A stretch of DNA of 46,542 nucleotides from Bacteroidales bacterium. Lineage in GTDB: Bacteria > Bacteroidota > Bacteroidia > Bacteroidales > JAIPAP01. The DNA is taken from assembly GCA_021740045.1 (NCBI GenBank), contig JAIPAP010000016.1, positions 1 through 46,542 on the forward strand, given 5' to 3'. The position numbers were made by a program, and so were the translations under genes. Numbering within the stretch: the first letter of the stretch is position 1; every line of letters begins with the position of its first letter. Below, one piece after another: positions 24,272-44,679 of this stretch. The notes under the pieces are model-generated. The model did not search any database. It was not told where the DNA came from and saw only the letters and a program-made list of their open reading frames with translations.

Positions 24272-27200
24272 ATGAAAAAGCTCTACCAAATTTCGGCTGC
24301 TATTGTGGCCTGCCTTATTAGCATTGCAACAATGGCGCAATCTATTTCGGGGGATGTTAAATTCTGGAATCAAAGCGACCTGCTTGGATTTGATAAAATC
24401 GATGATTGTAGGGGCACCACAGGCGATATCAGTTCAGCCTATGCCCGAATACAAGATAACACCCTGATGCTGCGGGTTACCTTTGATGATATGGTCACCC
24501 GCAAAGGAAACAAGGTTGAAAAAGATCATTTCCGCGACAAGGATATAAAGCTTCAGCTCGAAATCAGCCGGCACGGACAAGCAATCAACTTGCAGGAAAA
24601 AGCAATTGATCTTTCATTGCTTCAAAGTTCACAAACTAAAAGCCATTACCTTAGAACACCACAAGCAAACCTGTGGGAAGCAAGTATCAACTACTCAGCG
24701 GATGTTCCGATTGATGACCTCCGGTTTTCGCTTTTTGTTAAGATAGATGGAAAAACTGTGGATCAATTTGTATCAAATGGACGGGATCCTGATGCAACAG
24801 GCAACTGTGCATTTGTCCATCATGGCAACCAGGGCATAACCTATACTGAAGTTTTCTATGGCAGTCCAAATGGTCAAAGCGGCTTGGAAGGAAGTGGCTT
24901 TGATGAAATCTTACAAGTTCATGAAGCTACTGATATACCGGGGAATTTCCATATGTCGGGAACACTTATGCCTGCTGCCGAATGGCATAATCCTGAGTTT
25001 AACGACTGGCTCTATAACCTGGCTTCCGAAGGCCTTGCCGAGATGATGACCTCTGCGCTAGGCCAGCATATCATGCCTTTCCTTCAAAACGATATGAACA
25101 ACTGGTCGGTTGGTATCGAATCTGATATGGTTGACTTTCAATATAATTACACCCCTACAACCGCCTGGGTTCCTGAGCGGGTATGGCTTACTCCCGATGT
25201 TTATCCCAATGCCGGAGTTATTGATTGGCTGGGTGATAACTGGGCACAGCATGGCGTTTGGGGCGTGGTGCTGGACGACAGCCCGCATCTTAATGGATAC
25301 GACAACCGCAAGATCCACTGGATGAACAATGGCTCGGGCATCGATCTGCGCGTTATTCCCATCAATAATTCTTTTGTGGGTAATATGCAAAACAATGCCG
25401 ATGCCGCCAAGAACCAAATTGCCGGCATGGGCGAATACAACATCTGCGTTTATGGCACCGACTGGGAAGTGGCTGCCGAAATGAACGAACATGACGGCAC
25501 CTTTTACCTCGATAATTATGAAAGCGTCCTCTGGTGGTGCCATGACAATTATCCCGGTGTAAATGTCTGGAAGATGTCGGATGCCATGCAGAACAGCAAC
25601 TTTAACGGCACAGGAGCCGATATTACCCCTGGAACCTACAACTTGCTGGGAGGCGCCGATGGCTACGGCGGCAGCAACAACAGTTGGTACACCCAATGGG
25701 CAGCTACCCCCTCTCATTCCGATTTTCACGATCCCCAGTGGACGTACGGTTACGTTTGGGACGATGCCCATAACAACCTGCTCACAGCTCCTGATAACAA
25801 TCTTTCCCAACTGGCATGGTATATCATGATGATCAACCTGCATGAAACCGGCTGGCACGATGGCGGAGAAGTTGCCGGATGGGAACACCGTTATTCATCC
25901 CATATTAAAAATGCCAATGTTTATGCCCACGCCGCCCGATGGGCCGATGGTCAGTACCAGGAAGACCTGGCGGCTTATTATGATGATATCGACCACGATG
26001 GGGTGGATGAAGTGGTGATTCATAACCAGGATATTTTCGCTGTATTCGAAAGCATTGGTGGTAAAGTTAATTGGTTATTTTATAAAGATAACAGCGGAAA
26101 TGCCCATTCCGTGGTTGGTTCCGATATGGCCTACTGGTCGGAAACCGATGGCGACTATAATGAAAGCTCCAATAACCATGTAGCTGCTCTCTCCGATGTA
26201 TATCCCTATCAGCAGGATGCCATTTATGATATTGATATCATCCAAAGCTCAGGCGATACAGTCATAGTGGAATTATCGCAATGGGGTGTAAAGAAACGTA
26301 TCGAATTAACCGGCGGAAATAATTATTTGGATGTTACCTATGATTTTTATGATAGTGATGGCTATGTAAAATCCGGCTGGTCGCCGGGCCTGATGGACCT
26401 TGTTTGGTCAGGTAAAAGTCATGTGCAGCGCATGTGGGGCGATTACGGGTCTTATTGCGGACAGCGGAATTCCTCCTCCGGAGCAACAGTTGCCCTTGTA
26501 CTTGGCAATGGCGGTGCACAGCATAATACCCAGTTCGAAGGCACCCTGGTAATGGGTGATGAGATCAACGGCTACAACCGGTTCTTAACAAGGTTGTATG
26601 CCGGATATACTTCAGAGCCCTCCGGAACTACCGTCCCCGAATTAAATGACCTGGCCGGCCAAAACATGGACATCTTCCCTCCCACCATGAACGATCAGGC
26701 CTTTCAAATTGACAACAACACCGTGGAGATCACCTTTAGCGAAGCCGTGGAGATCACCTCGGCAGAAAACATTGCCAATTACACACTGCAAGGCTTTTCT
26801 GGCAACTACACCCTTGAATCGGCTCAACGCCAGGACGATTGGCGAAAAGTTCACCTCACCATAGCCGAAAACTGGCAGCCCGGTGATGAAGGTGAAATTA
26901 TAGTGGAAAATGTGGAAGACCTTAACGGAAATGTGATCGAAGATGAAAACAGCTCCGCATTTACAATACCTTCGGGTGTTACGCCCCACACTATCAACAT
27001 CGACGGCACTAACGATTTTGATCCTGAAACCGAGCTCATGGTCACCAATGATTATACCTTGTATATCACCTGGGATAATGAGAAAATATACCTGGGCTTC
27101 GAAAGCCTTAATCTGAGTGGTGGTGGCGATCTTTTTGTCAACCTCGACACCGATCAAACCGCAGGTAGCGGGGCACCGGAAGGCTCCTGGGGCCGTGTGG

Positions 27201-28735
27201 TTTATCCGGAGGATTTCATGGCCGAATACCAGGTAGCCATCGAAGGCGGTGGAGGCTCCATTCAATTGAATAATTATACCGGTGGTCAGTGGAATTATCC
27301 CGGTAGTAATGGCGCCGAATCCTATGAAGGCTGGGAAGAAAACGGATTGACTGAGATAGCAGTTCCCTGGGAATCACTGAACAATCCCCAGGGCATTGCC
27401 CTTTCGGTGCATGTTTCCGAAGAAGATAACCAAATGATCACAGCAGCCTATCCCGGTGAAAATCCCACGGGTGATCACCCCACCCTTACCCATGTGTATG
27501 CCTATTATCAACCTTACATCCCTTCAGGAATGCCGCTAGCAGGTATGGAGCCCAATACAGCGGTAATTGTGCCCGAACCGCAGGGTGATACACAGGAGAT
27601 TTCCCTTACCTCCGGTTATCAGTTTATTTCGAGTTACATCCAACCCGGTGACCCCGAAATGACAGTTGTGGTTGAAAGTTTGATGAATAACGAAACCCTT
27701 GATTTTATTCGCAATTCCAATGGCTCGCTATTGCACAAGATCGGACCGGTTTGGGTGAACAACATCGGCGATTGGAATACTACTGAAGGTTATTTATTCA
27801 GGATGTATGAAGTTGACAACTTCACCATTAGTGGCACTACCATGGATCCGCATACGCCTATAGACCTTGGAGATGGCTACCAGTTTATAAGTTATTTACC
27901 GGCCAGTCCCATGGATGCACAAGTCGCTGTAGCTTCTATCCTGGATAACCTGGACTTTATACGAAACAGCGATGGGGCCATGTTGCGCAAGATCGGACCG
28001 AACTGGATCAATGATATCGGTAATATGATGCCCGGAGAAGGTTACCTGGCCCGAATGAATGACGCCGATGAGTTGGTTTATCCGGTAAGCGGGAAAAAGC
28101 TGACAAATCATCATAAACCAAAACCACAATATTTCAAGTTTTCCGGAGGTAATCCGGCCGATCCGGTTTACACACTCTACCTTGAAGCCAGCCAAGGCAT
28201 TGAAGCCGGTGATGAAGTGGGCGCTTTCCAGGATGGTAAATTACTGGGATCGACCTTTATTAATAAGGAAGGACCTTTTAGCAATAGCCTGGCTGTTTTC
28301 AAAACCCTTGATGATCAGCAAGGGTATAGGACAGGTAAGCCTATCAAACTTAAATTGTACGATAAAAGCGCGAATAAGGAACGTAATTTGACGGTTGATT
28401 TCGCCAATCCATACGGGGATGCACATACAAGCATCACAGCTCCTGCTGGTGACGGTAAGTACAGCATAGCACGCATTACCAAGCAAAATAAAGGCTTTGT
28501 GCGTTCGGCCGGTTTCATATTTTATCCCAATCCGGCAAAAGACATTGTGCATATTCATGCCCGCAGCTCCATTAAACGAATTAGTTTGATGAATTATACC
28601 GGACAAGCTGTTCTTCAAAATTCGTTTAATGACCATAATATCGAGCTGGACATTAGCATGGTTGAACCTGGGCTCTATGTTTTGGAAGTGGACATGGAAG
28701 CGGGGATCAAGTCGGAGAAGATAATTATCAAGTAA
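24272..28735 (+). CDS. Giant GH57-like alpha-glucanase with T9SS signal
   Basis: This 1487-residue protein resembles GH57 amylase/pullulanase-type enzymes. A signal peptide (MKKLYQISAAIVACLISIATMAQ) is followed by a beta-sandwich (about 25-170) and the GH57-like barrel. Motifs that fit are FVHHGNQG (region 1), SGTLMP (region 2), TTAWVPERVWLTP with candidate nucleophile Glu302 (region 3) and CVYGTDWEVAAE with candidate acid/base Asp397 (region 4). Behind it come a SbsA-type Ig-like domain (about 800-895), a CBM9-like sandwich (about 905-1085), two copies of an 85-residue module (about 1107-1271: GYQFISS...LDFIRNSNGSLLHKIGP), another sandwich (1289-1390) and a T9SS type-A sorting signal (from 1413, FYPNPAKD). 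It would digest alpha-glucan at the cell surface, with the GH31 protein. The GH57 call rests on motifs only; substrate is unknown. Confidence 0.8.
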   Translation: MKKLYQISAAIVACLISIATMAQSISGDVKFWNQSDLLGFDKIDDCRGTTGDISSAYARIQDNTLMLRVTFDDMVTRKGNKVEKDHFRDKDIKLQLEISRHGQAINLQEKAIDLSLLQSSQTKSHYLRTPQANLWEASINYSADVPIDDLRFSLFVKIDGKTVDQFVSNGRDPDATGNCAFVHHGNQGITYTEVFYGSPNGQSGLEGSGFDEILQVHEATDIPGNFHMSGTLMPAAEWHNPEFNDWLYNLASEGLAEMMTSALGQHIMPFLQNDMNNWSVGIESDMVDFQYNYTPTTAWVPERVWLTPDVYPNAGVIDWLGDNWAQHGVWGVVLDDSPHLNGYDNRKIHWMNNGSGIDLRVIPINNSFVGNMQNNADAAKNQIAGMGEYNICVYGTDWEVAAEMNEHDGTFYLDNYESVLWWCHDNYPGVNVWKMSDAMQNSNFNGTGADITPGTYNLLGGADGYGGSNNSWYTQWAATPSHSDFHDPQWTYGYVWDDAHNNLLTAPDNNLSQLAWYIMMINLHETGWHDGGEVAGWEHRYSSHIKNANVYAHAARWADGQYQEDLAAYYDDIDHDGVDEVVIHNQDIFAVFESIGGKVNWLFYKDNSGNAHSVVGSDMAYWSETDGDYNESSNNHVAALSDVYPYQQDAIYDIDIIQSSGDTVIVELSQWGVKKRIELTGGNNYLDVTYDFYDSDGYVKSGWSPGLMDLVWSGKSHVQRMWGDYGSYCGQRNSSSGATVALVLGNGGAQHNTQFEGTLVMGDEINGYNRFLTRLYAGYTSEPSGTTVPELNDLAGQNMDIFPPTMNDQAFQIDNNTVEITFSEAVEITSAENIANYTLQGFSGNYTLESAQRQDDWRKVHLTIAENWQPGDEGEIIVENVEDLNGNVIEDENSSAFTIPSGVTPHTINIDGTNDFDPETELMVTNDYTLYITWDNEKIYLGFESLNLSGGGDLFVNLDTDQTAGSGAPEGSWGRVVYPEDFMAEYQVAIEGGGGSIQLNNYTGGQWNYPGSNGAESYEGWEENGLTEIAVPWESLNNPQGIALSVHVSEEDNQMITAAYPGENPTGDHPTLTHVYAYYQPYIPSGMPLAGMEPNTAVIVPEPQGDTQEISLTSGYQFISSYIQPGDPEMTVVVESLMNNETLDFIRNSNGSLLHKIGPVWVNNIGDWNTTEGYLFRMYEVDNFTISGTTMDPHTPIDLGDGYQFISYLPASPMDAQVAVASILDNLDFIRNSDGAMLRKIGPNWINDIGNMMPGEGYLARMNDADELVYPVSGKKLTNHHKPKPQYFKFSGGNPADPVYTLYLEASQGIEAGDEVGAFQDGKLLGSTFINKEGPFSNSLAVFKTLDDQQGYRTGKPIKLKLYDKSANKERNLTVDFANPYGDAHTSITAPAGDGKYSIARITKQNKGFVRSAGFIFYPNPAKDIVHIHARSSIKRISLMNYTGQAVLQNSFNDHNIELDISMVEPGLYVLEVDMEAGIKSEKIIIK

Positions 28736-33745: not shown

Positions 33746-35044
33746 ATGAAAAAGGTATTGATCATCACGTATTACTGGCCTCCAAGCGGCGGGGCCGGTG
33801 TTCAGCGATGGTTGAAATTTGTTAAATACCTCAGGGATTTTGGCTGGGAGCCGGTGGTCTACACACCCAAAAATCCAGAATATCCCGCTATCGATCATTC
33901 TTTCGAAAAAGATATCCCCAAAAATATTGAGGTCATCAAAAGGCCCATTACGGAACCCTATTCACTCTACAAGCGTTTTTCGGGCTTAAAAAAAGAGGAG
34001 CGTATCAGTGCCGGCTTTGCAAGCGAAAAGGAAAAACCAAAAGTAACTGAAAATCTCTCCGTTTGGTTAAGGGGCAATTTTTTTATCCCCGATGCCCGGA
34101 TGTTGTGGATTAAACCCTCGGTTAGGTTCCTCAGGAAATACCTGAAAAATCATCCTGTCGATGCGATTGTCTCCACCGGACCGCCTCACAGCATGCACCG
34201 CATAGCCCGAAAACTAAAGCATAAGCTTAATATACCCTGGCTGGCCGATTTTCGTGACCCCTGGACCAACATCGATTTTTACAATGATTTAAGGCTCACC
34301 AAATGGGCCGACCGTAAGCATCAACGGCAGGAAAAAGAGGTTTTGCAAGAAGCCGACAAAGTAGTGGTCATTTCTCCCTTTATGAAAAAGGAATTCCTCC
34401 AGATTCATCATCGAGAATACGAAGTGGTCACCAACGGTTTTGATGAAGATGACCTGGCTTTTGATAAAACCTTTCAAACAGATGAAAAATTCAGCATGGC
34501 CCACATCGGCACCATGACTTATTCGCGTAACCCAATTTCATTGTGGCTATCATTACAGGAATTGGTTGAAGAAAAGCCCGGATTTAAAGAAAAGCTGGAA
34601 ATAAAACTGGCAGGCAGCATCGACCACTCGGTGATGAACGCCCTGAAGGATCATCATTTGGACCGGTTTGTCAACAAGTTACCCTATCTTCCTCACGATA
34701 AGGTAGTTGAAATTCAACGCATTTCGCAGGTTTTATTATTAGCCATTAATGATACTCCCAATGCCAAAGGTATTTTACCCGGCAAATTTTTCGAGTACCT
34801 GGCCTCCGGCCGTCCGATTTTGTGTATTGGTCCCGGCGACGGCGATGCAGCAAGCATTATAAAACAAACCAATACCGGCCGCATTGCCGGTTATGCCGAA
34901 AAAGTGCGTATTAAAAAACATATCGATGATATTTTCAACGACTTTCAATCCAATAAACTTGCAGCAAAAGGAACAGCCATTGAGCAATTTTCAAGAAAAA
35001 AACTTACCGGGAAAATGGCTTCACTCCTGGATGGCTTAACCTGA
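33746..35044 (+). CDS. GT-B glycosyltransferase (family 4 type)
   Basis: The 432-residue protein is a cytoplasmic or membrane-associated glycosyltransferase of the GT-B fold. The N-terminal half has MKKVLIITYYWPPSGGAGVQ and WLADFRDPWT; the C-terminal half has a Rossmann unit with GILPGKFFEYLASGRPIL and GPGDGDAASII, where the EYLASG loop contacts the nucleotide sugar in this group. It is one base behind the YfhO gene, so translation is probably coupled. Together they suggest synthesis or decoration of an envelope glycan. Donor and acceptor cannot be told. Confidence 0.9.
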   Translation: MKKVLIITYYWPPSGGAGVQRWLKFVKYLRDFGWEPVVYTPKNPEYPAIDHSFEKDIPKNIEVIKRPITEPYSLYKRFSGLKKEERISAGFASEKEKPKVTENLSVWLRGNFFIPDARMLWIKPSVRFLRKYLKNHPVDAIVSTGPPHSMHRIARKLKHKLNIPWLADFRDPWTNIDFYNDLRLTKWADRKHQRQEKEVLQEADKVVVISPFMKKEFLQIHHREYEVVTNGFDEDDLAFDKTFQTDEKFSMAHIGTMTYSRNPISLWLSLQELVEEKPGFKEKLEIKLAGSIDHSVMNALKDHHLDRFVNKLPYLPHDKVVEIQRISQVLLLAINDTPNAKGILPGKFFEYLASGRPILCIGPGDGDAASIIKQTNTGRIAGYAEKVRIKKHIDDIFNDFQSNKLAAKGTAIEQFSRKKLTGKMASLLDGLT

Positions 35045-35152: not shown

Positions 35153-36148
35153 ATGCGCCTAGTAATAATCCATATTCTTTTCCTTTTGGCAGGCTTCCCA
35201 ATTGCAGGATACACGCAAGATATTCATCATTCCCAGTTTTTCAACACCTCTCCTTATATTAATCCGGCATTAACCGGGCAATCAACACCCGATTTAAATA
35301 TTGGGGCTAATTACCGGCAGCAAGGAAAAACAGCTTCCGTTCCTTATGAGACTTATACCTTATTTGCCGGTTTGAGCACCGCACCCAAATCGATCAGACG
35401 CAGTGAAATTGGTTATGGGTTACGGTTTTATAACGATGATGCAGGCCAAGGGATTTTGAAAACCTCCTCGGCTCATCTCTCTGCATCTTTTACCAAAGGA
35501 TTTAACCGGCATAATACCTTTAGAGGAACCCTGGGCTTTGCTGTCGGGTTTATCAATAAAAGTGTGGATTTTGCCAAATTAACATTTGATGATCAATGGG
35601 ACGGTAGGCAATTCAATCCTGAAATACCTACCATGGAACCTTACAAATCAACTTCGGTGTTTGCTCTGGATTTTAATTTCGGGGGATTGATCGCCATGCA
35701 ATTTTCCGAAGAGGTTAAAGCATCGGTTGGAACCAGTTTGAGCCATATCAATCGCCCCAAGGTATCTTTTTATGATATGGATGCCCGGGTTGAGCGAAAG
35801 TTGATTTTCCATACCAGGCTAAGCATACGCCTTACGGAAAGGCTTGCTATGATGCCGGCTGCTTTCTTTTCGAATCAGGCCGAAGCTAGCGAAACGATCA
35901 TAGGCACCAACCTGGTATTTGGTGAGATTGATGATTTTCAGCTAATCGGAGGAATATGGCACCGGCTTGAGCGGGATATTATTCCTATAGCCGGGTTAAA
36001 GTATAGGGATTTTACCATGACGGTAAGCTATGATGTTAACGTATCGGAGTTTCATGAGGTTTCAAATTATCAGGGAGGACCTGAATTTTCACTGATTAAG
36101 GGATTCTATTTCGGTGAACGGAAGGAATTCTGTTATCCTTTCGAATAA
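35153..36148 (+). CDS. PorP/SprF-family outer-membrane protein
   Basis: The 331-residue protein has a signal peptide (MRLVIIHILFLLAGFPIAGYTQ) followed by DIHHSQFFNTSPYINPALTG, the start typical of PorP/SprF proteins, and then alternating amphipathic strands to a C-terminal aromatic (YPFE), as in 14-strand outer-membrane barrels. ATG 35153 is used; the frame opens 12 bp earlier at TTG. PorP/SprF paralogues help T9SS export or anchor particular cargo that has type-B (CHU_C-like) C-termini. Two such cargo genes follow directly (12 and 8 bp gaps), a strong hint that this copy serves them. Confidence 0.9.
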   Translation: MRLVIIHILFLLAGFPIAGYTQDIHHSQFFNTSPYINPALTGQSTPDLNIGANYRQQGKTASVPYETYTLFAGLSTAPKSIRRSEIGYGLRFYNDDAGQGILKTSSAHLSASFTKGFNRHNTFRGTLGFAVGFINKSVDFAKLTFDDQWDGRQFNPEIPTMEPYKSTSVFALDFNFGGLIAMQFSEEVKASVGTSLSHINRPKVSFYDMDARVERKLIFHTRLSIRLTERLAMMPAAFFSNQAEASETIIGTNLVFGEIDDFQLIGGIWHRLERDIIPIAGLKYRDFTMTVSYDVNVSEFHEVSNYQGGPEFSLIKGFYFGERKEFCYPFE

Positions 36149-36160
36149 TAAAAAAAGCAA

Positions 36161-39100
36161 ATGAACAGATTTAAGGTCATATCAATCATTTTATTAACCA
36201 TCGGGGTACTTGTTGCCCCCGGCTTGATGGGTGAAGAATACTATTGGGTAGGAAACTCAGGTAACTGGTCCGACATTAATCACTGGGCTGTAAACTCAGG
36301 CGGTAGCGTTCTTCATTCACAAACCCCCACTGCTAATGATGATGTTTATTTTGATCAGAATTCATTCACCGAAGATGGTTGTATTGTGGTTATCGATCAT
36401 AAAAATGCCGTATGTAAAGATATGCTCTGGGCCGGCGCTACCAATAACCCTGTGCTTTCCGGCCATGACACCACCAGCCTGAGAATTTATGGCTCTCTTA
36501 GCTTCATCAATAATATGCAAATGGATTACCAGGGCATCATTTATTTTGAAGCAACCAATCCGGGTCAAACAGTTTCGTTAGCGGATCAATCCCTGAAAAA
36601 CCATGCATATTTTCAAGGTGAGGGCGGTGGCTGGCAACTTGAGGATAAATTTACAAGCCAGGAAAATATATATTTTCTTACCGGTGATTTGATTACCAAT
36701 GATTACACTTTAGCATGCCAGAACTTTATTTCAAGTACTCAAACCAACCGTTATCTTGATTTGGGAGAATCAACCGTCGAAGTGACCAATTGGGAAATAA
36801 ACGGCGTTAACCTGCAAATGAATGCGCAAAATGCATTCTTAATAGTAGGATCATCACTTAAAAATATCGATGGTGAAGAAATGATTTATGATGACATCCA
36901 TTTTATTGGGGCACAGGGCGTTATTATTAACGCTCAGGTTTGGGTGACCTATAACAATGTGTTTTTCGATTATAGCGGGGGTATTAACGGGGATTGTAAA
37001 ATTGACACACTTAATTTCGGAAGCAGTGGAATAATTAATGATAGCGACACCATCACCTATGTGAAGGTGGGCGGTGAGGGAATTATCAACGGAAGTCACA
37101 TTATTGACCGGGCTGACTTACGTGAAGAATCCTCCATACTTGGCCATAATAAGATCAATTTTTTAACGGCACAGGGACTTACAAAAATAGCGGGAAACAA
37201 TAACATTAACGAAGCTATTCTGGCTCATGAAGCTGAGATTGACAGCAGCAACGCAATTAATCATATTACCGTGGAGGAAGAAGCCCGAATAAAGGGGAGC
37301 AATATCATACGGAATTGTTTATTAAATGGGGATGGCTATTTCAGGGGACAAAACACCTTCGACACCCTGATTTTTTCTCCGGGAAAGTCTTATATATTCG
37401 GCATTGAATCAACCCAAACCATTAAGGATGAATTAACGCTTGACGCCAATTGCTCCGCTCCTATAAGGCTTTTAGCCGATACCAATGGTGTTCAATCCAC
37501 TATTCATAAAGTAAATGGCCCGGTTGAAGGGGATTTTCTCTCCATCAGGGACATAAAAGCCTCAGGTAATGTTCCTTTTATTGCCAACCAATCGGTTGAT
37601 CTGGGCAACAACACCAATTGGGAAATCGACACCAGCCAGGGTATCGATCTTTACTGGGTGAATGGAGACGGCCATTGGGATGATCCTAACCATTGGGATG
37701 CACAGTCGGGTGGTAGCGGTGGCCATTGCCCTCCAACAGAACTCGACAATGCTCTTTTTGATGAAAATTCATTCTCCGGTTCGGGGCAAGCTGTAATGAT
37801 CAATGTTGATAACGCCGTGTGCAGGGATATGATTTGGGAAGGAGCCGAACATAATCCCTCACTGCAAGGCTCCATAAAAAGAAACCTGAGAATTTACGGT
37901 TCTCTCACGCTAATAGGAGGTATGAACCTGGCATTTTCAGGAGAAATATATTTTGAAGCTACCGAAAAGGGGGAAACCATTACCAGCGCCGGAAACATCT
38001 ACAATAACAATACCTGGTATACAGGTCGGGGCGGTAGCTGGGCCTATCAGGATGAATACACCACTGAGCAAACTATCTATCTACAACAAGGTGAACTCTT
38101 TACAAGTTCGGTTGAAGTTACCTGTAATGACTTCCAATCAACCGATACTACTACAAGAGCCTTATCATTAGGAACGTCTGAAATTTACCTCAATAAAGCG
38201 AGCGCTGAAGCCTGGTCGCTGAATGCTCAAAATCTCACCTTCGACGGGGATTCATCATTTATCTATGTAAAAGGCCTTGCTGGTCAAATGAAGAGCTTCA
38301 GTGGTAACGAACTGGTTTATAACGACGTGGAATTTTGGCACGCCAGTTCGGCGCTCAAAAACGAAGGAACTTACTGCTATTATGACCTGGTTACTTTTAA
38401 GGGGGCCAAAGGTGAAATTCGCGGCAACTGCACCATCGATACAGCTACCTTTTATGGCCCGGAAAGCACGGTGTTCGACAGCGATACCATAAAAACAGTG
38501 ATCTTCCTGGGGAAAGATGGTTTGTTGAAAGGAGGCAATCACATCATCGAAATTGCCTATTTCTATAAAGATGGACAAGCGCACGGTTCTTGCGTTATCG
38601 ATACGGCTCTTTTTTATGAGAGGGGCATTATTTCCGACACCAACACCATCGATACGACTATTATTCATAAGCGAGCATTAATCAAAGGAAAGAATAATAT
38701 CCGGACGGCAACCCTTAAAGATAAAGGAACTTTTAGTGGTAGCAATAGTTTTGGCACCCTAACCTTAACCCAGGGAAACAAGTACATTTTCCAGCGAGAC
38801 AGCGCGCAAACCATAACCGAACAATTCAACATTAACGGTGCATGCACAGGGCCAATATTCCTTTATTCCAATGAAGTAACCCATCAGGCCATCATCAATA
38901 AACCCACTGGGCAGGTAACAGGCGATTATCTTGTGTTGCGCGATATGAAGGCTGTAGGTGAAGATAAACCCTTTATTGCTAACAATTCCGTGGGACTAAG
39001 TAATAACGATGGCTGGCAAATTAACGCATCCGAGCCGAAAGACCTTTATTGGGTGGGAGGCTCAGGTGTTTGGAGCGATTCATTGCATTGGTCGGCCTAC

Positions 39101-41344
39101 TCAGGAGGTGACGGAGGGTACTGCATCCCTTCACCCAAGGATGATGTTTATTTTGATGAAAACTCGTTTCCCAATAACAGTAGCAGAAAAGTCACGGTTG
39201 ATATTGAAAATGCTACATGCCATAATATGGATTGGACCGGAGCAAAATACAACCCAAGATTTATGGGAGCCGATTCGGTGAATTTAAGAATTTATGGTTC
39301 ATTGACCTTTATCCGCAATATGCGAATGTCATTTGGTGGACGGGTCTTTTTCGAAAGCACCGAGAAAGACCAATTTATTGATGCTGCCGGTCAGCAATTC
39401 AGCAACCTGGTTTATTTCCTGGGCATTGGCGGTGAATGGGCTTTAAAGGACAGTTTGCAATCAGCAAAGCAAATCTATTTTAAACATGGTACTTTGGATG
39501 CGCAGCAAAACTATATCTCCTGTTCGAACTTTAATTCAAATTATGACAACCCAAGAGAGCTCGATCTCGATTCATGCGAGATAGTCCTTACCGGTACAGG
39601 TACCGAAACATGGTTCATCGATGGTGAGAACCTTGAATTTACAGCTAAGGATTCCAAGATCACCTCTACCGGGCCTTCGTCTGTTTTCCGTGTTGAAAAC
39701 GGCGGCCCTTTCGATTATCATAAGGTTAGGTTCCTGATAAGCGGACGGATCTATAACAACAATACGGAAATTGCTTATGACCATATCCGTTTCCACCAAG
39801 GAGGTGAAGTACATGGTAATTGTAGCATCGATTCCGTCATCTTTGATCAATCGGGATTTATATATGACTCCGATCAAATTAACTATGCACACATCAAGGG
39901 ATCATTCGGAGGATTGATTGGCGGTAGCCACCAGGTTGAGACTATCTTGTTTAACGAAAGCGGTCAGGTGAGTGGAAATAATACGATCGATTCCACTTCA
40001 TTCGGGGGCAATGCCAGCGTAAACGGAATAAATAGCATTGGCAAAACATGCCTCATTGGCGGCACAGCAACCATATCGGGTAACAATACGTTTGATAAGC
40101 TTACTATCAGAGGTGACGGCATCTTTAACAATCAAAATGAATTTAATGAGCTGGAATTCACCCCCGGCAATAAATATGAATTAGAAGAAGGCATTAAACA
40201 GACCATTTATCATGATTTCAGGATAAGGGGAAATAATTGTTTCCCGATTGTATTGCGATCACAGCATGAGGGCGAACAAGCTGATATATTTATGCCATCC
40301 GGAACCCTGGTAAGTGGCGATTTTATTGAATTACGGGATATCAATGCTACCGGTGGCGGGGCTTTTTACGCCGGCAATTTCAGTACCGATATTTCCAACA
40401 ACACCGGTTGGAGCTTTACCAATTCACCGGGGTATATTTTTGGATTTCCAAGAGATACAACGGTTTGTACGGGGTTGAAAACAGAAATCGGGACTGAGTT
40501 CTTCAATCCCGGACCCAAAACAACATTCCTGTGGCACGACGGAAGCACCGGCGACAGCTACCGGGTAAGTAATGAAGATTCTATTTGGGTAAAGGTATTT
40601 TATGCCGATGATTGTTTTTACACCGATACCTTATTGATCAATTACCGGCAATCGCCTACCGTTGATCTTGGTGATGACAGGCAAATCTGCACCGGTGACA
40701 CCATTTATCCCTGGCCCCAAACCGATACGCTCAGTTACTTATGGTATGACAGCACCACCAATCAATACACTATAACCGAAGAAACCGGTCATTACTGGCT
40801 GGAAGTTACTGATAGCTTTGGTTGTAAGGATAACGACAGTGTATATGTAGAAGCGCTTCCAACACCTGATGTTTTTCTGGGCAGCGACACCACCTTGCCC
40901 TTCGGAGGAGAAATCACTTTGGATGCCGGTTTCCCCGATGCTAGTCATTTTTGGTCAACCGGCGATACCACCCGGCAAGTACTTGTACCGGGTGATGAAA
41001 CCTATTGGGTGGAAGTAACCAAAGACGGTTGCCTGGGGAGTGACACCATCTATGTGGGTGAATATCCCGAGTGTATTCTGGCTGTGCCCACTGCATTCTC
41101 CCCTAACGGCGACGGCCATAATGATATGCTTCGTGTAAGAGGGAATGGCTTCAGGGAGTTCGAGTTGCTGATCTTTAACCGCCTGGGAGAATTAGTTTTC
41201 AGTACAAAAAACAGCCAAACCGGGTGGGATGGCACTTATCAAGGTAAGCAACAGGAAATGGATGTATATACCTTTTATCTGAAAGGAACTTGCACAAGTG
41301 GACGTCAGGTGGTGAAAAAAGGGAGTATAACTCTGCTCAAATAA
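36161..41344 (+). CDS. Giant surface protein, three 465-residue repeats, T9SS type-B end
   Basis: This 1727-residue protein has a signal peptide (MNRFKVISIILLTIGVLVAPG) and three long units starting at about residues 26, 496 and 961. Each opens with YWVGNSGNWSDxxHW-type sequence, then DDVYFDxNSF, a LRIYGSLxF strand and a stretch with recurring short GxNxI steps (e.g. GNNNINEAILAHEAEIDSSN) suggesting a parallel beta-helix. Units end in GDFLSIRDIKASG-type sequence. After about 1425 come two to three Ig-like modules (DLGDDRQICTGD...YWLEVTD) and a CHU_C-like type-B sorting domain (VPTAFSPNGDGHNDMLRVRG, LLIFNRLGELVFST, ending GSITLLK). It is a predicted surface-attached adhesin or matrix component. 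No catalytic motif is visible. It is in an operon with PorP/SprF and a second cargo gene. Confidence 0.88.
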   Translation: MNRFKVISIILLTIGVLVAPGLMGEEYYWVGNSGNWSDINHWAVNSGGSVLHSQTPTANDDVYFDQNSFTEDGCIVVIDHKNAVCKDMLWAGATNNPVLSGHDTTSLRIYGSLSFINNMQMDYQGIIYFEATNPGQTVSLADQSLKNHAYFQGEGGGWQLEDKFTSQENIYFLTGDLITNDYTLACQNFISSTQTNRYLDLGESTVEVTNWEINGVNLQMNAQNAFLIVGSSLKNIDGEEMIYDDIHFIGAQGVIINAQVWVTYNNVFFDYSGGINGDCKIDTLNFGSSGIINDSDTITYVKVGGEGIINGSHIIDRADLREESSILGHNKINFLTAQGLTKIAGNNNINEAILAHEAEIDSSNAINHITVEEEARIKGSNIIRNCLLNGDGYFRGQNTFDTLIFSPGKSYIFGIESTQTIKDELTLDANCSAPIRLLADTNGVQSTIHKVNGPVEGDFLSIRDIKASGNVPFIANQSVDLGNNTNWEIDTSQGIDLYWVNGDGHWDDPNHWDAQSGGSGGHCPPTELDNALFDENSFSGSGQAVMINVDNAVCRDMIWEGAEHNPSLQGSIKRNLRIYGSLTLIGGMNLAFSGEIYFEATEKGETITSAGNIYNNNTWYTGRGGSWAYQDEYTTEQTIYLQQGELFTSSVEVTCNDFQSTDTTTRALSLGTSEIYLNKASAEAWSLNAQNLTFDGDSSFIYVKGLAGQMKSFSGNELVYNDVEFWHASSALKNEGTYCYYDLVTFKGAKGEIRGNCTIDTATFYGPESTVFDSDTIKTVIFLGKDGLLKGGNHIIEIAYFYKDGQAHGSCVIDTALFYERGIISDTNTIDTTIIHKRALIKGKNNIRTATLKDKGTFSGSNSFGTLTLTQGNKYIFQRDSAQTITEQFNINGACTGPIFLYSNEVTHQAIINKPTGQVTGDYLVLRDMKAVGEDKPFIANNSVGLSNNDGWQINASEPKDLYWVGGSGVWSDSLHWSAYSGGDGGYCIPSPKDDVYFDENSFPNNSSRKVTVDIENATCHNMDWTGAKYNPRFMGADSVNLRIYGSLTFIRNMRMSFGGRVFFESTEKDQFIDAAGQQFSNLVYFLGIGGEWALKDSLQSAKQIYFKHGTLDAQQNYISCSNFNSNYDNPRELDLDSCEIVLTGTGTETWFIDGENLEFTAKDSKITSTGPSSVFRVENGGPFDYHKVRFLISGRIYNNNTEIAYDHIRFHQGGEVHGNCSIDSVIFDQSGFIYDSDQINYAHIKGSFGGLIGGSHQVETILFNESGQVSGNNTIDSTSFGGNASVNGINSIGKTCLIGGTATISGNNTFDKLTIRGDGIFNNQNEFNELEFTPGNKYELEEGIKQTIYHDFRIRGNNCFPIVLRSQHEGEQADIFMPSGTLVSGDFIELRDINATGGGAFYAGNFSTDISNNTGWSFTNSPGYIFGFPRDTTVCTGLKTEIGTEFFNPGPKTTFLWHDGSTGDSYRVSNEDSIWVKVFYADDCFYTDTLLINYRQSPTVDLGDDRQICTGDTIYPWPQTDTLSYLWYDSTTNQYTITEETGHYWLEVTDSFGCKDNDSVYVEALPTPDVFLGSDTTLPFGGEITLDAGFPDASHFWSTGDTTRQVLVPGDETYWVEVTKDGCLGSDTIYVGEYPECILAVPTAFSPNGDGHNDMLRVRGNGFREFELLIFNRLGELVFSTKNSQTGWDGTYQGKQQEMDVYTFYLKGTCTSGRQVVKKGSITLLK

Positions 41345-41352
41345 AATTAATT

Positions 41353-44300
41353 ATGGGAATAAGATACCTTTTGCTAATCCTTATTGCTGTGTTTATTTCT
41401 GTAAGTATTCATGGTCAATACCCTGGTGAAATATGGTATTTTGGACAAAATTCCGGTTTGGATTTCAATACCAACTCCCCTACCCCCTTAAATGACGGAA
41501 TGATTAGTTCTATTGAAGGTTGCGCCACGATGACCGATACCGATGGGAATATTTTATTTTATACTGATGGGGTTACGGTTTGGGATAAGGATCATAACGT
41601 AATGGAAAACGGGGAGGGCCTGGCAGGTCACAATTCATCTACTCAAGTTGCTGTCATTGCCAAACAGCCGGGAGACAATCCTTATTATTTTATTTTCACA
41701 ACACCAAAGTATGCAGAACCGGAAGGCTTATGTTATTCCAAGGTGGATATTTCGAAAAACAACGGATTGGGGGAAATCACACTTAAAAATATTCAGTTAA
41801 CAACCCCCGTAAGTGAAAAGTTAACTGCCATAAGGCATGCTAATAACCTGTCAACCTGGATTATCACCCATAAATATAACTCGGATGCCTTTTATGCCTA
41901 TCTGCTTTCGGAATCAGGACTATCAATGAATCCTGTAATTAGTAATACGGGAGCAACACATCAAGGTGGTACATTTGGAACCTATAATGCCATGGGGTAT
42001 ATGAAATCCTCACCAAGCTGCGAGAAATTGGCATTAGCCATATATGACATGGGAATATTCGAACTATTAAATTTCAATAATCAGAATGGAGTGATATCTC
42101 ATCAGCTAACATTCTCAGGCTACCAAAAAAGTTATGCTGTTGAATTTTCACCAAACAATCATTTACTCTATGTGAAAGAGCTTTATTCAGGTGAAATTTT
42201 TCAATACAACCTTAACGCCGGTTCGCCGGGTGAAATATTCGACTCTAAAACATTGATAGGGGTAGCAACTGCATCACCCTCTAACCCGAATTACGTATCA
42301 GGAGCATTGCAATTGGGAAAGGATGATAGAATTTACGTTAGTAAATATATGGAGCCTTTTTTGGGACGAATTGAAAACCCCGATGTTGTTGGAACGGATT
42401 GTAATTTTGTTGATGAGGCATTATATCTAAATGGTAAACAGGGATTATTGGGATTTCCTTATGCAGGTAAAGACATAAGTATCGCCTTCACCTATGAACC
42501 TGATTGCTACGGGGATTCCACCTATTTTTACATCGAAAACACCAACGGGGTCAACGCCGTGGAATGGGATTTTGGAGACCCGGCCAGCGGGGAAAACAAC
42601 TATTCCACCTCCTTTAATCCGTATCATGTTTTTACTGAACCGGGGGAATTCGTGGTTACCCTCACGCTTTTCTACGGCAGTGATTCCACCACGGTTGCCC
42701 AGGAGGTGATCATTCACGAAACCCCGCAAATCGACCTGGGCAATGACACCATTATATGCTCGGGTGAAAACTTCATCCTCGACCCGGGTGGTGGTTATGA
42801 AGCCTTCCTCTGGCAGGATGGCTCACAGGAGCAAACCTACACGGTTACCGAATCGGGCCTCTACTGGGTGGAGGTCTTTAATGAGTTCGGCTGCAGCGAC
42901 CGCGACTCCATCGAAGTGCTCATCAGCGATCCCTTTGATATTGACCTGGGGGAAGATACGACCTTTTGCAGCGGCGATTCCCTGCTGCTTCATGCCGGCA
43001 GCGGCTTTGATGACTACCTGTGGCAGGATGGCTCCGGGGATTCAACCTACACGGTTACCCAAACCGGGACCTACTGGGTGATGGTCACCGATAGCATTGG
43101 TTGCACAGCCACCGACTCCATCCAGGTTACCGTGCTGCCGGATAATGACCTGGAACTGGGTGAGGATTCACTGGCCTGTTTTGGCGAAACGGTCATTCTC
43201 GATGCCGGTGAGGGGTATGATGAATACCTCTGGCAGGACGGGTCTACCAATCAAACCTTTGAAGTTACCCAGGAAGGGACCTATTGGGTGGAAGCCACCA
43301 ACATCTGCGGAACCGACCGGGATACCATCGCGGTGGCCTTCACCGATTACTATGATATTTCCCTGGGGGAGGATACCGCCTTTTGTTACGGCCAATCCCT
43401 GTTGCTGGCTCCTGACAGTTCTTATTCCCAATACCTGTGGCAGGACGGCTCCACCGATTCCGTTTATATCGCCAACCACACGGGCTGGTACTGGCTGGAG
43501 GTAACCGATGCGTACGGGTGCACGGCCACTGACTCTATCTACATCGAGGTGTTTATGGATTATGAGGTCAGCATTGGGAAAGATACGGCCATCTGCCGGG
43601 GCGAATATGTGTTCCTGGATGCACCCGGGGGCTTTGAGCATTACCTGTGGCAGAACGGCGATACAGCAACCTCTATTATTGCCGATACCGCCGGCATCTA
43701 CTGGTGCGAGGTTACCGATGAGCACGGCTGTGCAGCCAGGGATTCCCTGCTGCTGGATGTTCACAGCCTGCCTGCGGATTTCCTGGGCGAGGATACCATC
43801 CTTTGTCCGGGGACTTCGATCACCCTAAGGACCGATTCCCTCTACAGCGCCTACTGGTGGCCCGATGGCTCACAAGATTCGGTATATGCCGCGGACACTG
43901 CCGGCCTGTACTGGCTGAGGGTAGCAGATGAGATCGGTTGCGAGGGAACGGACACCATCAGGGTAGAAGCCTTTGAAAAACCGGCATTTGATGCCGATTC
44001 AGCCTTTATGTGCCCCGGCGAAACAGTGGAATTGCAGATTGACGGGGGATACCAGGGGTATGAATGGACTGGCGGCTCGGGTGACAGTATTTTTGTAGTA
44101 AATACTCCCGGTTATTACTGGGTGGATGTGACCACCCGCTGCGGGGTGTTCCGGGCATCGATCTATGCAGGAGAATATAAGCTAAGGCCTTTCGACCTGG
44201 GCGCCGACACCATGCTGTGCAAGGGGGAAAACCTGCGGATTGAGGGGCCCGCGGGTTACACCGATTACTACTGGCCCGATGGCTCCACCGGAGAATCATT

Positions 44301-44679
44301 TGTAGCTACCGAACCGGGTACCTACCGGCTGGAGGCCTTTGACGGCCATTGCTGGGTAAGCGATTCCCTGCTCATCGAGCCTTGCCCCTCCATCTGGATC
44401 CCCAATGCCTTCACCCCCAATGGTGATCAGCATAATGATTATTTCAGGGTGGATGCCCAAAATCCAGCGGGTATTTATAACTTTAAGCTGCTGATCTTTA
44501 ACCGATGGGGACAGCATATTTATACCCTCGAAAACGTGAACGATCGCTGGGACGGCAAAATTAAGGGCAACCCCTGCTCGGAGGGAACCTACTTCTGGAT
44601 TGCCGAATTCGAAACATTCGAAGAACAATCGATAATAAAACAGCACAACCTCAAAGGTAGTATAACGCTACTGAGGTAA
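41353..44679 (+). CDS. Surface protein with eight 68-residue Ig-like repeats, T9SS type-B end
   Basis: The 1108-residue protein starts at ATG 41353 (signal peptide MGIRYLLLILIAVFISVSIHGQ); the frame is open earlier but would overlap the previous gene. Residues about 23-375 look like a beta-propeller of the kind with IWYFGQNSGLDF and DGNILFYTDGVTVWD. A PKD domain (WDFGDPASG) follows, then eight repeats of about 68-70 residues with the scheme LGEDTxxCxGExxxLDAGxGYxxYLWQDGSTxxxYxVTxxGxYWVEVTDxxGC, and a CHU_C-like type-B sorting domain (IPNAFTPNGDQHNDYFRVDA, ending GSITLLR). Two cysteines per repeat (one missing in some) could form disulfides. Predicted role: long stalk-like surface adhesin. The gap to the preceding cargo gene is 8 bp. 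Confidence 0.9.
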   Translation: MGIRYLLLILIAVFISVSIHGQYPGEIWYFGQNSGLDFNTNSPTPLNDGMISSIEGCATMTDTDGNILFYTDGVTVWDKDHNVMENGEGLAGHNSSTQVAVIAKQPGDNPYYFIFTTPKYAEPEGLCYSKVDISKNNGLGEITLKNIQLTTPVSEKLTAIRHANNLSTWIITHKYNSDAFYAYLLSESGLSMNPVISNTGATHQGGTFGTYNAMGYMKSSPSCEKLALAIYDMGIFELLNFNNQNGVISHQLTFSGYQKSYAVEFSPNNHLLYVKELYSGEIFQYNLNAGSPGEIFDSKTLIGVATASPSNPNYVSGALQLGKDDRIYVSKYMEPFLGRIENPDVVGTDCNFVDEALYLNGKQGLLGFPYAGKDISIAFTYEPDCYGDSTYFYIENTNGVNAVEWDFGDPASGENNYSTSFNPYHVFTEPGEFVVTLTLFYGSDSTTVAQEVIIHETPQIDLGNDTIICSGENFILDPGGGYEAFLWQDGSQEQTYTVTESGLYWVEVFNEFGCSDRDSIEVLISDPFDIDLGEDTTFCSGDSLLLHAGSGFDDYLWQDGSGDSTYTVTQTGTYWVMVTDSIGCTATDSIQVTVLPDNDLELGEDSLACFGETVILDAGEGYDEYLWQDGSTNQTFEVTQEGTYWVEATNICGTDRDTIAVAFTDYYDISLGEDTAFCYGQSLLLAPDSSYSQYLWQDGSTDSVYIANHTGWYWLEVTDAYGCTATDSIYIEVFMDYEVSIGKDTAICRGEYVFLDAPGGFEHYLWQNGDTATSIIADTAGIYWCEVTDEHGCAARDSLLLDVHSLPADFLGEDTILCPGTSITLRTDSLYSAYWWPDGSQDSVYAADTAGLYWLRVADEIGCEGTDTIRVEAFEKPAFDADSAFMCPGETVELQIDGGYQGYEWTGGSGDSIFVVNTPGYYWVDVTTRCGVFRASIYAGEYKLRPFDLGADTMLCKGENLRIEGPAGYTDYYWPDGSTGESFVATEPGTYRLEAFDGHCWVSDSLLIEPCPSIWIPNAFTPNGDQHNDYFRVDAQNPAGIYNFKLLIFNRWGQHIYTLENVNDRWDGKIKGNPCSEGTYFWIAEFETFEEQSIIKQHNLKGSITLLR

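Follow-up and report, generated by a model that had tools for sequence, protein, structure and literature searches.

The window analysed here is a 46,542-nt stretch (positions 1 to 46,542 of contig JAIPAP010000016.1, assembly GCA_021740045.1) from a Bacteroidales bacterium. It contains a PorP/SprF-family gene followed by the genes for two giant type-B cargo proteins of the type IX secretion system (T9SS), termed cargo 1 and cargo 2 (Table 1). We favour, with moderate confidence, a module in which the one PorP carries both cargos, which together would belong to a single surface structure. The three genes are closely spaced and co-directional, and their coordinates confirm the positions and the gaps of 12 nt (PorP to cargo 1) and 8 nt (cargo 1 to cargo 2) given by an earlier sequence-only reading of this DNA. 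The sole sizeable gap in the set, 108 nt, separates the upstream glycosyltransferase gene from the PorP ATG; an alternative PorP start, TTG 35141, is possible. Scans for consensus sigma-70 promoters and consensus terminators returned hits at chance level (28 against 26.8 expected and 14 against 12.2 expected, respectively). Because the set recurs in other genomes, the layout is more than chance.

The window PorP scores 150.2 bits against TIGR03519 (cut-off 90.55) and 118.4 bits against PF11751 (cut-off 22.3). Its AlphaFold2 (AF2) model is a predicted FadL/PorV-type outer-membrane barrel with a mean predicted local distance difference test (pLDDT) score of 75. The best matches of the model in the PDB are 8gl6_F (E 1.9e-9) and FadL chains, at a template-modelling (TM) score of ~0.5, while a sequence search of the PDB with the same protein returned no match up to E 1.

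Cargo 1 is composed of a signal peptide (assigned by eye), three repeats of ~450 residues, an immunoglobulin-like (Ig-like) stalk and a type-B C-terminal domain (CTD). AF2 predicts an all-beta solenoid for the three repeats, with a mean pLDDT of 83.6. A Foldseek search with the solenoid model gave no match at E 0.001 or below. When the Foldseek candidates were realigned with a cargo 1 repeat, solenoid proteins ranked first, specifically EtpA (VIA Z 18.1, 417 aligned, root-mean-square deviation 6.2), pertactin (Z 15.9) and HMW1 (Z 14.5). Cargo 2 is composed of an N-terminal head, an Ig-like array and a type-B CTD.

Both cargos end in CHU_C-like domains, as the sequence-only reading had held. 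The CHU_C/TIGR04131 matches exceed the curated cut-offs, with 61 bits for cargo 1 and 68 bits for cargo 2 in Pfam and 50 and 53 bits in NCBIfam, and finish at, or at most 16 residues before, the C-terminus. The same reading had called the two cargos unrelated. That description holds for their N-terminal parts but fails for the last ~300 residues of cargo 1, which align with cargo 2 at 28% identity over 306 residues (E 6e-29), the stalk and the CTD being common to both.

Table 1. Features of the cluster and its upstream flank, in window positions
Feature	Position	Strand	Description
PorP/SprF-family gene	35153..36148	+	331 aa; ATG 35153; predicted type-B shuttle and anchor
PorP C-tail cysteine codon	36131..36133	+	Fifth residue from protein end
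Cargo 1 gene	36161..41344	+	1727-aa type-B T9SS cargo
Cargo 1 repeat 1	36221..37588	+	Predicted beta-solenoid; AF2 model
Cargo 1 repeat 2	37628..38983	+	38% identical to repeat 1
Cargo 1 repeat 3	39026..40375	+	37% identical to repeat 1
Cargo 1 Ig-like stalk	40442..41080	+	Homologous to cargo 2 stalk
Cargo 1 type-B CTD	41081..41335	+	Class I; PF13585 65.4 bits (genome search)
Cargo 2 gene	41353..44679	+	1108-aa type-B T9SS cargo; ATG 41353
Cargo 2 N-terminal head	41353..42540	+	Head family search
Cargo 2 Ig-like array	42706..44397	+	Pfam and alignment with cargo 1
Cargo 2 type-B CTD	44398..44673	+	Class II; PF13585 74.8 bits (genome search)
GT4-family glycosyltransferase gene	33746..35044	+	Pfam; flank, probably outside the module; matched in 1 of 10 related loci

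The cluster in related genomes

Searches of 393 genomes of the order, including that of the window, used the cargo 1 repeat and the head of cargo 2 as queries (G-, C- and L-numbers below are our handles for genomes, contigs and loci). The cargo 2 head family is present in 116 of the 393, and close cargo 1 relatives (best E ≤ 1e-60) in 10 of the 392 other genomes; in a phylum-wide sample of 394 other genomes, no relative of cargo 1 reached E ≤ 1e-50. Twenty regions, picked by eye from the top search rows, cover all ten genomes with cargo 1 relatives. Eight of these ten encode a PorP in the same cluster, 39–48% identical to the window PorP, and by tree distance these eight are its nearest relatives among all PorPs compared. 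In G131 and G364, the remaining two, the contigs are short and show no PorP.

In six of the eight PorP-bearing modules, two to five type-B or cargo-2-family cargos are seen with each PorP. The order PorP, cargo 1, cargo 2 also occurs in G337 and G079, and the number of cargos around one PorP is four in G266, four in G063, five in G173, two in G211 and one each in G091 and G103. In seven of the ten genomes, cargo 1 has a cargo-2-family gene in its vicinity. This gene follows cargo 1 immediately in G337, G266, G131 and G063 (−4 to 24 nt) and after 321 nt in G079; in G173 another cargo gene intervenes, and in G364 cargo 1 is flanked on both sides (9 and 48 nt). G173 has an extra non-type-B gene between PorP and cargo 1, and in G337, G079, G063 and G131 cargo 2 runs off the contig end with its CTD out of view. 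Class-II cargos have the stalk and CTD in common with cargo 2 and differ in their heads. Four successive type-B cargo genes lie at L215:4829-18826, the last three with near-identical CTDs and differing N-terminal heads. In the genome of the window, L034:1878-8627 encodes a 2249-aa protein with cargo-2-like Ig repeats, placed after a small type-B cargo and a PorP.

The two cargo types also occur within single proteins. In G035 (L219:4431-13895), one 3155-aa open frame without a stop joins cargo-1-type repeats to a cargo-2-type head. In G026, one cargo joins a cargo-2-like head (37.6% identity over 402 residues) to a cargo-1-like tail (33% over 302 residues), and it adjoins a PorP that groups with that of the window in a set of four (Shimodaira–Hasegawa-like approximate likelihood ratio test (SH-aLRT) support of 96).

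The genes flanking the module are seldom found with it. YfhO (59%) and GT4 (56%), directly upstream of the module, were matched only in G337 of the ten module loci, and GpsA and the transporter gene in none. Nine window genes were compared with the ten loci, several of which are short contigs; apart from a 172-aa match in G091 to the window gene at 24272-28735, no further non-module match was found.

As background, we placed 137 PorP genes from 13 relatives of the same order against 150 of 159 CTD matches, so that the links are lower bounds. At least 69 PorP genes have one upstream cargo, at least five have one downstream cargo, at least four have two cargos nearby (three flanked on both sides, and that of G088 with two upstream), and 59 have no nearby cargo among the matches listed. 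PorP-first order is uncommon, and a PorP followed by two cargos is seen in the window alone, among the matches listed. Two successive PorP-PorE-cargo sets, each with PorP first, are found at L041, L042, L044, L045 and L046.

These data bear on a reading, which we consider quite improbable, in which the genes lie together through co-regulation or ordinary operon history, with cargo genes gathering around a PorP by duplication and recombination, and form no joint structure. Cargo paralogues and head swaps are indeed frequent in the related loci, and clustering is usual for PorP and type-B cargo genes (PMC10202324). However, cargos 1 and 2 stay together at cargo 1 identities of 34–52%, while YfhO and GT4 are seen with them in one of the ten loci, several of which are short contigs; the two types are combined in a single frame in G035; and few background PorPs have two cargos nearby. 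The cluster retained among relatives suggests one carrier with several passengers of one surface structure.

Co-divergence of PorP and sorting domains

Tree distances between PorPs correlate with those between the CTDs of neighbouring cargos at rho 0.81 over 94 pairs, whereas none of 200 permutations exceeded 0.06. The pairs of the window and of L112 were excluded, the nearest cargo was taken as the partner, one cargo served two PorPs, and where a locus has two PorP-PorE-cargo sets (five loci), the partner was set by hand to the downstream cargo. The fit of individual pairs exceeds 0.2 in 92 of the 94, with a median of 0.80. Orphan CTDs numbered 31 (28 from other genomes, of 33 taken from 141, and three from the genome of the window), and 20 of the 59 unlinked PorPs were taken in. 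In the two-cargo unit of G088, used as a positive control, both CTDs fit the PorP at 0.89.

The cargo 1 CTD fits the window PorP at 0.72–0.78 (0.73 and 0.72, then 0.78 after the additions described below) and lies inside a 36-row clade of the CTD tree (SH-aLRT 88). Within the module, cargo 1 and PorP correlate at rho 0.70, a value reached by 0.13% of 3742 permutations. We infer, with good support, that cargo 1 is a passenger of the window PorP.

Cargo 2 is probably the second passenger. The CTDs most identical to its own among those compared are those of L212 (51%) and L221 (48%), which lie in related modules containing a PorP of this kind, against 44% for the best orphan CTD, encoded on contig C47 of the same genome. 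An approximately unbiased (AU) test on a 66-row set did not reject a cognate-side placement of cargo 2 (p-AU 0.666), and the tree with that placement was 9.8 log units better. We rejected cargo 2 as a mere orphan-class passenger on this result and on its move among the added module CTDs.

Several observations weigh against a second passenger. Specifically, the CTD of cargo 2 differs in class from that of cargo 1, and class-II-like CTDs are found away from any PorP, including on contigs C47 and C62 of the same genome. In the CTD tree, cargo 2 lies outside the clade that holds cargo 1, in a poorly fixed position near orphans, and the AU test leaves its placement undecided. The fit of its CTD to the window PorP is unstable, being 0.04–0.07 at first, when orphans made up all five of its nearest CTDs, and 0.55 after the addition of 28 CTDs from module and other cargo-2-family loci, selected for kinship. 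Its eleven nearest CTDs then all came from the added set, ten from module-type loci and one from L228, a locus with no PorP in sight. Since the additions were kin-selected, and since CTDs of the cargo-2 family from stretches with no PorP (L225–L228) score the same 0.55, this score is no proof and does not single out module members. Furthermore, the cargo-2 class and PorP correlate within the module at rho −0.02 (five members), and two of the eight PorP-bearing module loci, L217 and L220, show a single type-B cargo. The sequence-only proposal of one barrel serving two passengers is thus partly supported, by the fit of the cargo 1 CTD to the PorP class, the recurrence of the set and the joining of both types in one frame, and is weakened for cargo 2 by the second CTD class, the shifting fit and the nil within-module correlation.

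A possible, though less probable, arrangement is that PorP carries cargo 1 only, and that the co-transcribed cargo 2 leaves SprA with a general shuttle encoded elsewhere and encounters cargo 1 on the cell surface. Such a shuttle could be the PorP that neighbours the GldJ-like gene of the same genome, by analogy with Fjoh_1677, a PorP-like orphan shuttle that serves three orphan type-B cargos (PMC12618676). The same report makes the strictly dedicated one-to-one shuttle assumed by the sequence-only reading too strict a premise. The initial grouping of the cargo 2 CTD with orphans is consistent with a separate shuttle, as is the presence in this genome of two cargo-less PorPs and of orphan cargos on C47, C62 and C159, without an adjacent PorP in the stretches examined. 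However, the two CTDs most similar to that of cargo 2, among those compared, sit in modules, the clustering with one PorP is conserved, and the PorP on the GldJ side fits cargo 2 weakly (0.23).

The genome of the window encodes five PorPs. One lies beside gldKLMN and one beside the GldJ-like gene, both with no cargo; of the three linked to cargo, one belongs to a cargo-PorE-PorP set, one follows a small cargo and the third is that of the window. Seven strong CTD matches (≥49.9 bits) out of 27 were taken as type-B cargos, and the remaining 20 (≤32 bits, seven of them reaching the cut-off) were excluded. SprA is present, GldK, GldL, GldM and GldN score above cut-off, and the GldJ-like protein falls just below it (441.5 against 458.2 bits). 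The PorP that adjoins the GldJ-like gene (L035:10007-12532) has a cysteine tail (CPEF) and belongs to a clade of seven PorPs (SH-aLRT 99), of which six have no linked cargo and six have a tail cysteine; GldJ adjacency within the clade was examined for L035 only. PorPs of this clade are candidates for an orphan-cargo shuttle. At L047:8818-10981, two neighbouring PorP genes are found with no type-B cargo in the stretch examined.

Display, attachment and known systems

In the arrangement that we favour, with one PorP carrying both cargos, the three genes would form one transcript and both cargos would cross SprA. The barrel would collect cargo 1 through its C-terminal domain and stay bound as an outer-membrane anchor. 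Cargo 2 would be taken up as well, as would additional class-II cargos in relatives. A constant solenoid protein and at least one protein with an interchangeable head would thus be displayed by a single barrel as one surface structure.

By analogy with SprF, attachment of the barrel to the GldK/GldJ track is more probable than attachment to the cell wall, since no PorE-like gene was found and the PorP C-tail cysteine is conserved. The C-tail cysteines of SprF are disulfide-bonded to the gliding-track protein GldK (PMC12635249), and the mobile type-B cargos studied have no PorE gene encoded alongside (PMC12635249, PMC12618676). One cysteine is present in the last 14 residues of all nine module PorPs, and at least one in 38 of the 125 other PorPs compared. 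A hidden Markov model built from six PorE-like proteins found no PorE-like gene in the window or in the examined stretches of the ten module loci (several cut by contig ends), and matched in six of seven comparison loci (not L128). The GldK of the same genome has Cys264 and Cys320, in addition to the lipidated Cys20 and a late Cys433; judged by spacing alone, Cys264 and Cys320 are placed much like the published Cys285 and Cys343. Against track attachment, the tail has a single cysteine and lacks the Cys-X-Cys of SprF, a motif absent from the last 20 residues of all 134 PorPs compared, including that of the window. We regard as unlikely the further proposal that one PorP anchors a multi-protein surface fibre, made of a constant solenoid cargo and one or more class-II cargos with exchangeable heads, via two sorting-domain classes and is pulled along the gliding track by the single C-tail cysteine.

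An association between PorP tail cysteines and CTD cysteines (18 of 26 with a tail cysteine, 2 of 72 without; Fisher 1.2e-11) was rejected as evidence because it reflects only four to five tree changes, too few independent pairs. In addition, the SprF tail is periplasmic, which makes a direct bond to a surface CTD unlikely. The two cysteines flanking the type-B CTD are both present in 35 sequences, the second only in four, the first only in 36 and neither in 65, uncorrected for kinship; they tend to co-occur, a pattern as would be expected for an internal disulfide.

The cluster resembles several known systems. Like SprB/SprF of Flavobacterium johnsoniae, it combines a type-B cargo with a PorP/SprF shuttle, which in that system stays bound and has C-tail cysteines, and shows no adjacent PorE gene (PMC9143113, PMC12635249); it differs in having PorP first with two cargos after it, a single tail cysteine and other N-terminal parts. 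A PorP-family barrel and a type-B cargo are also found in PorP-PorE-PG1035 of Porphyromonas gingivalis and in the PorE operons of F. johnsoniae (PMC9143113, PMC12618676), from which the window and the module loci differ by showing no PorE-like gene. The G088 unit (L112) likewise has two type-B cargos and one PorP, but both cargos precede the PorP, both CTDs lie in one clade with linked CTDs, and the PorP belongs to another clade than that of the window. Fjoh_1677 (PMC12618676) serves several type-B cargos as a single PorP-like shuttle, as proposed for the window PorP; in gene arrangement, it differs in that its cargo genes are unlinked to that of the shuttle, whereas those of the window form a tight recurring cluster. 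No multi-cargo PorP operon was found in the titles and abstract openings searched. As far as these sources go, multi-cargo shuttling is already known from Fjoh_1677, and what is new is the conserved, clustered, two-class, multi-passenger arrangement.

The recurrence of one barrel with two sorting-domain classes provides a natural test of how a shuttle chooses its cargo, with the same barrel, two CTDs and several orthologues. Furthermore, the strong co-divergence of PorPs and CTDs offers a route to proposing shuttles for orphan cargos.

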